Position numbers and translations under genes: made by a program
Assembly: GCA_022340665.1 (NCBI GenBank)
Contig: JAJDNM010000096.1
Coordinates: 1-39,455 of the forward strand
Length of the DNA: 39,455 nucleotides
Direction: 5' to 3'
Origin: Acidobacteriota bacterium
GTDB taxonomy: Bacteria > Acidobacteriota > Thermoanaerobaculia > Thermoanaerobaculales > Sulfomarinibacteraceae
The notes under the pieces: model-generated
What the model was told of the DNA's origin: nothing
The model's database searches: none
Seen by the model: the letters and a program-made list of their open reading frames with translations, nothing else
Shown: positions 7,856 through 12,962 of the stretch, piece by piece
How the letters are laid out: each line of letters starts with the position of its first letter
Position numbering within the stretch: the stretch's first letter is position 1

Positions 7856-8458
7856 ATGATGAACCGAGAGTCCGAGTTCGCCGAAACAGTCGTTCACATC
7901 AACCGTGTCGCAAAGGTCGTCAAGGGCGGCAAGAACTTCTCGTTCTCCGCCGTGGTCGTTGCGGGCGACGGTTCGGGCAAGGTCGGATACGGCACCGGCA
8001 AGGCGCGCGAGGTGCCGCCGGCAATCCAGAAGGCGAGCGAGCAGGCTCGTAAGGAGATGGTGAAGATCCCGCTGGTCAGCGGAACCGTGCCTCACCTGGT
8101 GTGGGGGCGGTGGGGCGCGACCCGGGTTCTGCTCCGTCCGGCTTCACCCGGTACGGGTGTCATCGCGGGCGGCGGCGTGCGTGCTGTGATGGAGTCGGCG
8201 GGGGTCGCCGACGTGCTGACGAAGATCGTTGGCAGCCGCAATCCATTCAACGTGGTTCGCGCCACCTTCGATGCCATCGACCGCCTGATGACCAGCGGAC
8301 AGGTCAATCGGTTGCGCGGCATTGACCTCGGCCCGGCGCCGGAAGAAGCGGAGACTCCAGCAGAGGTAGAGGCTGCGGATGTGGCTGAGGAAGGTGAGAA
8401 AACCGAGGTGGCCGAGGAGGCGATCGAGCCTGAGGTCGCCGAGGGAGATGACAGCTGA
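7856..8458 (+). CDS. rpsE: 30S ribosomal protein S5 with acidic C-terminal tail
   Basis: S5 lines the mRNA channel and affects decoding fidelity. The core is normal: double-stranded RNA-binding-like region [20 protein letters not shown], then [20 protein letters not shown] and the C-terminal domain with [20 protein letters not shown]. After about residue 162 ([12 protein letters not shown]) there is an extra tail of roughly 38 residues made almost only of Glu, Ala, Val and Asp. The tail is encoded in normal frame with similar codon use, so it is not a frameshift. The stop overlaps the rpmD start by one base (TGATG). The tail is acidic while the next gene encodes a strongly basic extension. 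Confidence 0.97.
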
Positions 8459-9045
8459 TGACTGCGGAAGAAAAGAAACAGAAGGCGGCCGACGAGAAAG
8501 AGGTCGCGGCCGAGAAGGCGCCGGCGAAGAAGGCTGCAGCGAAGAAGGCTGCGCCCAAGAAGTCGGCCGCAAAGAAAACGACGGCCAAGAAGCCGGCTGA
8601 GAAGAAAACCTCTGCCAAGAAGGCGGCGCCGAAGAAGGCAGCCGAAAGGAAGGCAACGGCCAAGAAATCGGCTGCCAAGAAGCCTGCGGCCAAGAAAGCC
8701 GCGCCGAAGAAGGCGGCAGAAGAAAAGAAGGCCGACACCAAGACGACCGCCGAGAAGAATGCAACGGCGCAGAAGCCGGCCGAAAGGAAGGCCGCGCCGA
8801 AGAAGGCTCCGGCCAAGGCCGAGACTTCCAGAGCGACCGCGAAGAAAGCCGAGGGTTCGGGCAAGATGCTCAAGATTACCCAGGTGCGCAGCCAGATCGG
8901 ATTCGCGCGAAAGCAGCGACTCGTGCTGTCCAGTCTCGGTCTGGGACGTATCGGCCGGTCGGTGACGCGCCGCGATCATCCGACGATCCGCGGCATGGTG
9001 TCCAAGGTCACCCACCTGGTTTCGGTAGAGGAAGTGGAGGGCTGA
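8458..9045 (+). CDS. rpmD: 50S ribosomal protein L30 with a long Lys/Ala-rich N-terminal extension
   Basis: The C-terminal 59 residues (MLKITQVRSQIGFARKQRL... to the end) are a complete, canonical L30, which binds 23S rRNA and is normally only about 60 residues. In front of it lies a 136-residue extension made of Lys, Ala, Pro, Thr and Glu in AAKKAAPKK-like units, resembling the C-terminal tail of histone H1 and bacterial H1-like proteins. The ATG at 8458 is coupled to rpsE by TGATG. An in-frame ATG at 8866, preceded by GAGGG about 10 bases upstream, would yield exactly ordinary L30, so dual initiation is possible. The extension has no stop and follows the same codon usage. Its function is unknown; nucleic-acid binding or ribosome packing are inferences. 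Confidence 0.93.
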   Translation: MTAEEKKQKAADEKEVAAEKAPAKKAAAKKAAPKKSAAKKTTAKKPAEKKTSAKKAAPKKAAERKATAKKSAAKKPAAKKAAPKKAAEEKKADTKTTAEKNATAQKPAERKAAPKKAPAKAETSRATAKKAEGSGKMLKITQVRSQIGFARKQRLVLSSLGLGRIGRSVTRRDHPTIRGMVSKVTHLVSVEEVEG

Positions 9046-12003: not shown

Positions 12004-12384
12004 GTGGCACGAATTGCAGGCGTTGATCTGCCGGCCGGCAAAAGAGTCGAGATCGGCCTCACATATATCTATGGTATCGGTCGCACCCGCGCCAAGAAGA
12101 TCCTCGAAAAGGCCAAGGTCGAAGAGGGGATCAAGGTCAAGGACCTCTCCGAGGCCGAAGTTCTGGCGATCCAGCAGGTGATCCAGAACGAGGGTGGCGT
12201 CGAGGGTGATCTCCGCCGGGAGGTCGCCATGAACATCAAGCGCCTGATCGAGATCGGGAGCTATCGAGGCATCCGGCATCGCCGTGGGCTTCCGGTTCGT
12301 GGCCAGCGAACCCACACCAATGCACGCGGCCGCAAGGGCCCGCGTCGTCAGGCTGTCGCCGGCAAGAAAAAAGTCTCGAAATGA
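12004..12384 (+). CDS. rpsM: 30S ribosomal protein S13
   Basis: S13 forms intersubunit bridges and contacts the P-site tRNA. The product has 126 residues and starts at GTG, giving [20 protein letters not shown], with the helix-two-turns-helix region [14 protein letters not shown] and the tRNA-contacting tail [24 protein letters not shown] lies upstream. The stop codon directly abuts a long palindrome that separates it from rpsK, which is unusual because these genes are normally adjacent. Confidence 0.97.
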
Positions 12385-12548
12385 AACTTGAGATGTGCAA
12401 TTCTCGCCGGCGATCTGTACCAATCTCCCGTGCTCTGAGCACTCGCGCCAGTGCTCGACATACCTCTGGGTATGCCTCCGCCTGTCGCGAGCACCAGAAC
12501 ATCGAGATCTTGGCACATATCATCCGGCAGAATCGCACATCTCAAGTT
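12385..12548. repeat. Long imperfect palindrome (REP/MITE-like) between rpsM and rpsK
   Basis: This 164-base segment starts with AACTTGAGATGTGC (12385-12398) and ends with its exact reverse complement GCACATCTCAAGTT (12535-12548). Inside, the arms continue to pair imperfectly (ATTCTCGCCGG against CCGGCAGAAT, TGTACCAA against TTGGCACA, CTCGCG against CGCGAG). A small hairpin CATACC-TCTG-GGTATG lies at the centre (12459-12474). The whole segment could fold as one hairpin in mRNA or a cruciform in DNA. It encodes no convincing protein. It follows the rpsM stop directly, and the rpsK ribosome-binding site (AGGAG) lies just beyond its right end. Form and size resemble palindromic non-autonomous elements; no target duplication is obvious. 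Confidence 0.75.
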
Positions 12549-12566
12549 GAGAGCAGGAGCTGAATC

Positions 12567-12962
12567 ATGGCAAAGGAAAAGAAAGGTGGGCGGAAGCCGC
12601 GTCGGGAGCGCAAGAACGTGCCCCATGCAGTCGCCCATATCCACGCCACCTTCAACAACACGATTGTGACCTTCGCCGACCCGGGCGGTGGCACGCTGTG
12701 CTGGTCGTCCGGTGGTCGGATCGGCTACAAGGGCTCGCGCAAGGGGACACCGTACGCGGCCCAGCTGGCTGCGAAGTCGGCGGCCGAACAGGCCCAGGAT
12801 CAAGGTGTGCGCTCGGTTGAAGTGTTGGTGAAAGGTCCGGGCCCGGGCCGGGAATCGGCGATCCGTGCAGTGGCGGCGAGCGGGCTCGACATCAGGAGCA
12901 TCCGCGACCTCACGCCGATCCCGCACAACGGTTGCCGTCCGCGCAAACGGCGCAGGGTTTAG
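12567..12962 (+). CDS. rpsK: 30S ribosomal protein S11
   Basis: S11 lies on the platform of the small subunit near the mRNA exit. The 131-residue product contains [59 protein letters not shown] and the terminal [13 protein letters not shown], with the Asn-Gly site often converted to isoaspartate in the family. The ribosome-binding AGGAG lies 8 bases upstream. A 182-base gap with a palindrome separates it from rpsM. Confidence 0.98.

Follow-up and report, generated by a model that had tools for sequence, protein, structure and literature searches.

The window analysed here, a stretch of 39,455 nucleotides of DNA from an Acidobacteriota bacterium, carries an alpha operon whose rpsM-rpsK gap holds an imperfect palindrome. 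The palindromic stretch of 164 bp (12385-12548) directly follows TGA, the stop codon of rpsM (12382-12384), and 18 nt separate its end from the rpsK start (12567). The features at this locus are as follows.

12004 to 12384, + strand: rpsM (ribosomal protein S13), upstream neighbour, intact; open reading frame with orthologues at 82-90% identity in the taxonomic family
12382 to 12386, + strand: expected left copy of the target duplication, TGAAA, which includes the rpsM stop codon; placed by the family register
12387 to 12546, + strand: full unit of family A, a palindromic MITE family; covariance-model match of 170 bits over model positions 1-156, and aligned copies; limits given by the family's 5-bp duplications outside CC..GG
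12387 to 12404, + strand: left terminal inverted repeat CTTGAGATGTGCAATTCT; family consensus CCTAAGATGAGCGATTCT
12454 to 12481, + strand: tip (apical) motif CTCGACATACCTCTGGGTATGCCTCCGC, common to family A and a second palindrome family, B
12529 to 12546, - strand: right terminal inverted repeat; family consensus on the + strand AGAATCGCTCATCTTAGG
12547 to 12551, + strand: expected right copy of the target duplication, TTGAG; placed by the family register
12555 to 12559, + strand: Shine-Dalgarno-like AGGAG of rpsK, intact, from the sequence
12567 to 12962, + strand: rpsK (ribosomal protein S11), downstream neighbour, intact; open reading frame, with the orthologue start aligned in relatives

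The sequence-only reading had described a 164-bp palindrome with outer 14 bases in perfect inverted repeat and arms that pair imperfectly up to a central hairpin. The repeat is exact, with AACTTGAGATGTGC at 12385-12398 and its reverse complement at 12535-12548; the outer 46-nt arms are 76% complementary, and pairing runs on to the central hairpin. The RNA fold of 12360-12570 reaches -85.7 kcal/mol; 200 dinucleotide shuffles gave -60.3 +/- 4.5, and not one of them folded as well as the native sequence (z -5.6). The palindrome is thus present and strongly folding, but its length needs revision: the mobile unit, as set by homologous copies and their target duplications, measures 160 bp (12387-12546), and the outermost AA/TT pair (12385-12386, 12547-12548) belongs to the flanks. 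Elsewhere in the same gene cluster, at 8458-9045 of the window, a C-terminus that by eye is ribosomal-protein L30-like follows a long, repetitive, Lys/Ala-rich N-terminal stretch.

Searches with both the terminus and the full sequence found no copy of family A other than the window palindrome in the draft genome it comes from (3.95 Mb in 153 contigs), a uniqueness limited by the tendency of such assemblies to lose repeats. The expectation that a mobile family would reveal itself through further copies in the same genome therefore failed, with the family visible in relatives only. Within the same taxonomic family, ten further genomes contain matches that cover most of the sequence at 68-87% identity. 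No such match was found in the genomes searched from the same order outside that family, only short partial matches appeared outside it among 396 genomes of the phylum, and a plasmid collection gave no match; among the genomes sampled, family A is confined to one taxonomic family. A covariance model built from 27 copies returned 46, 38, 36, 27, 24, and 23 matches in six family genomes and none in three, counts to be taken as maxima, since one palindrome may be hit on each strand and weak matches are counted too.

Extraction and comparison of 72 copies or partial copies defined a common unit of 160 bp with ends CCTAAGATGAGCGATTCT...AGAATCGCTCATCTTAGG, the terminal inverted repeats being 18 nt long with the same consensus, CCTAAGATGAGCGATTCT, on both sides. 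The five bases flanking either end match at 69% of positions, as against 35% with shuffled partners (z 13.5), and perfect 5-bp duplications occur in 16 of 60 copies where 0.6 would be expected; a shift of register by a single base abolishes the signal. At the window copy the flanks TGAAA and TTGAG agree at two of five bases, and the duplication there is accordingly decayed or absent. The left copy may have been held in place by the rpsM stop codon while the right one drifted.

Comparison of the locus across relatives reveals the empty site. From rpsM stop to rpsK start, the distance is 182 nt in the window; 15 family members from other genera have 14-18 nt, and two members of the same genus that lack this element have 30 and 61 nt. 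The two remaining genus members, with genomes 65-66% complete, yielded no rpsM match, and the element is absent between rpsM and rpsK in 13 more distant relatives. Among named genomes, a set that may omit records very close to the window, many of the best RpsM matches come from Acidobacteriota, one of them a Thermoanaerobaculum at 75% identity. The 61-nt spacer (genome G003, L137) holds a different short inverted repeat (gcacgg...ccgtgc), whose sequence bears no relation to that of the window element.

Family A therefore has the attributes of a MITE, being a short, non-autonomous unit with terminal inverted repeats, a 5-bp duplication, dispersed copies, and empty sites. With high confidence, the palindrome is a non-autonomous MITE, which an ancestor of this species acquired by insertion downstream of the rpsM stop codon and upstream of the ribosome-binding site of rpsK. 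The suggestion, made from the window alone, of a MITE-like mobile palindrome that landed in a tolerated gap is borne out by the shared ends, the copies scattered through relatives, the 5-bp duplications, and the empty site. An assignment to REP/REPIN sequences, which are described as palindromes of 20-40 bp (PMC3733652), does not fit a 160-bp unit with target duplication. The type represented by Rickettsia palindromic elements, which lie in frame within genes, does not fit either, as just 4 of 62 copies fall in a called gene, near one end of it, with no protein-level selection.

The genomic context of those 62 copies was assessed with a simple codon-usage gene caller written for this analysis, which is approximate, since it missed rpsK in the window; it placed 51 copies between called genes, seven at contig edges, and four in a called gene, each near one end of that gene. 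None of the copies examined, other than that of the window, adjoins rpsM or rpsK. Several occupy short gaps between co-directional genes, for example (judged by eye, without database search) between TonB-like and ExbB/TolQ-like genes and between SmpB and UvrA genes, which indicates that insertion into an operon gap is not special to the alpha operon. Family A insertions that reach gene gaps would be the ones that survive. Among copies between co-directional genes there was no significant bias toward either sense-strand orientation (22 versus 12, p 0.12).

In 56 copies of family A that have no gaps, the arms, 80 nt each, remain exactly in register, and the consensus stem comprises 51 Watson-Crick and four G-U pairs. 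Compensatory changes occur at 25 of 51 consensus stem pairs in these copies, with double-sided changes in 170 cells as compared to 58 after shuffling and 31-56 with partners slid by one to three positions, an excess that is not to be read as a probability because the shuffles ignore the relatedness of the copies. RNAalifold, run independently on 27 copies, gave 15 of 34 pairs with double changes. Other arm positions stay unpaired in nearly all copies. The window copy departs from the consensus at 25 sites, and seven of its 11 altered Watson-Crick stem pairs are compensated, giving 51 Watson-Crick pairs against 42.8 +/- 3.2 expected. Its pair 2/159, next to the end and nearly invariant in other copies, has changed from C-G to T-A with compensation. 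Pairing exceeds each copy's own expectation in 51 of the 56. Arm pairing has thus been preserved during divergence, both family-wide and in the window copy, and the hairpin looks constrained. The preserved pairing may come from selection on the hairpin, either as single-stranded DNA during transposition or as RNA, or from template-switch correction of imperfect palindromes; both processes predict it, and the constantly unpaired positions weakly favor selection.

The element would be co-transcribed with the alpha operon, giving the mRNA a long imperfect hairpin whose end lies about 20 nt upstream of the rpsK start. The insertion appears to be tolerated, and any effect on mRNA processing or on expression downstream would be modest at most. 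A later effect of the insertion on mRNA processing is possible. One putative form of it is co-option of the element at this site, in which the hairpin would be cut by a double-strand RNase, or would alter transcript stability, and so shift the ratio of the rpsM product to those of rpsK-rpsD-rpoA-rplQ. This proposal adds to the MITE origin rather than replacing it. It draws on the location within a transcription unit, on the strong fold of 12360-12570, on pairing kept despite 25 differences from consensus (the compensated pair 2/159 included), and on precedent: NEMIS hairpins of the Neisseria Correia type are cut in mRNA by RNase III, and ERIC sequences, as in Yersinia, change transcript stability (PMC10969869, PMC2229807). 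Set against this, 51 of 56 copies pair above expectation wherever they are located, meaning that the kept pairing is not specific to this locus, and one genome only has an insertion between rpsM and rpsK. We regard co-option as rather unlikely.

Far less credible is the view that the palindrome is a native regulatory or attenuation structure of the alpha operon in this lineage. Its place in the operon and its strong fold would suit that role, but the site is empty in 17 family members and 13 more distant relatives, copies occur at unrelated loci, Rfam returned no match to the palindrome, and no promoter or intrinsic terminator (a GC-rich stem followed by a T run) was found at it. The sequence-only reading had held that a palindrome unique in its genome yet conserved at this locus among relatives would favor regulation; this one is indeed unique in its own genome, but relatives do not have it at this position, which speaks against a regulatory site of ancestral origin.

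A small protein gene, read from the frame of about 50-60 aa at 12381-12563 that overlaps the rpsM stop codon, is just as improbable: the frame of about 50 aa is open in 60 of 66 family A copies and the peptides are similar, but they are alike because the DNA is alike, pN/pS is 0.95 with diversity equal at the three codon positions, openness fits independent site sampling (0.86 expected), and neither Pfam nor NCBIfam contains a match to the peptides. Of the 66 copies, 49 also have a second forward frame open.

Within the window's own genome, the weak matches of the covariance model mostly belong to palindrome family B, about 190 bp long, with members 71-97% alike. This family has about 20 copies in that genome (G000, L194-L203) and others across the phylum (L285-L314). 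The two families have in common a 28-nt tip motif, CTCGACRTACC-N4-RGTAYGCCTCCGC, but differ in ends and arms, with identity of 0.54-0.68 near the tip and, for the most part, 0.25-0.5 beyond it. Allowing up to two mismatches, the tip pattern has 21 matches in the window's own genome, one of them the window element, and it finds matches in 16 of 396 sampled genomes of the phylum, while a reversed control pattern finds a single match. The motif is present in several taxonomic families of the phylum, and most of the matches inspected sit at the tip of long palindromes. In many of these palindromes the ends are of CCCGGAT type and are flanked by CTAG, TTAA, or a tetranucleotide like them. Family B shows an apparent 4-bp YTAR target, and its ends, which differ from those of family A, resemble those of an IS1380-type insertion sequence. 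In genome G255 (contig C720, L320:1363-1560), an IS1380-type transposase gene has CTAG|CCCGGATATCTCATGAAG a short way upstream, which makes that gene a candidate autonomous partner of family B; a second end of the element was not found there. Because CTAG|CCCGGATATCTCATGAAG precedes the gene, family B is probably mobilized by IS1380-type enzymes. It is possible, though we hold the idea tentatively, that the 28-nt tip is a conserved RNA or single-stranded-DNA signal recognized by a host factor or a transposase. Were that so, the phylum would harbor a superfamily of hairpin parasites in which selection acts on the tip, and not on the ends alone, and the tip signal would be displayed on a ribosomal-protein mRNA by the alpha-operon copy.

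Family A elements would have been moved by a DDE transposase acting in trans. No transposase with family A ends was found in the draft genomes searched, and the surroundings of lone terminal repeats proved to be truncated copies, chance matches, or contig ends. Three kinds of candidate partner were rejected: a gene beside a bare terminal repeat (L258), which has no Pfam or NCBIfam match and for which no second terminal repeat was found; loci of DDE_Tnp_1 transposases, which do not have family A ends; and loci of IS1380-type transposases, which do not have them either. ISEcp1, of the IS1380 family, makes 5-bp duplications (PMC2887853), and the CC-starting ends and 5-bp duplication of family A are compatible with IS1380. 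Genome G012 contains another insertion sequence (L273:322-342 and 2304-2324), with perfect 21-bp terminal repeats TCCTAGCGCGAGTTTACTGGA and a DDE transposase of about 596 aa.

For a phylum that has been little studied, these results describe a MITE family defined by its sequence, for which duplications are clear and copies are counted, and one member of which has settled within the alpha ribosomal-protein operon. The covariation of the hairpin, taken with a tip common to families with different ends, offers a testable case for bacterial palindromic MITEs preserving their structure, and not their ends alone. A search of the open-access literature found no description of such an element in this phylum, which is not proof of novelty.

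Among known systems, ERIC (also IRU or RU-1), a 127-bp enterobacterial MITE, is like family A in being short, mostly intergenic, and foldable over the whole element into an imperfect stem, and also in the open frames of its copies and its family-level host range (PMC2229807, PMC10969869). ERIC is described as having TA-type termini and a contiguous terminal repeat of 7 bp, whereas family A has another sequence, 160 bp, CC..GG ends, and a 5-bp duplication. The Yersinia palindrome YPAL (RU-2), at about 168 bp, is similar in length to family A and likewise neither A+T-rich nor bounded by TA ends; like the window element, it is palindromic, contains an open frame, and is transcribed with neighboring genes (PMC2229807). 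It differs in its duplications, which range from 3 to 26 bp where those of family A are a constant 5 bp, and in having internal inverted repeats where family A has terminal ones. The Correia/NEMIS elements resemble family A as MITEs with long terminal repeats that form a hairpin in mRNA, in Neisseria a substrate of RNase III (PMC10969869, PMC2229807), and differ in their TA-type target and their sequence.
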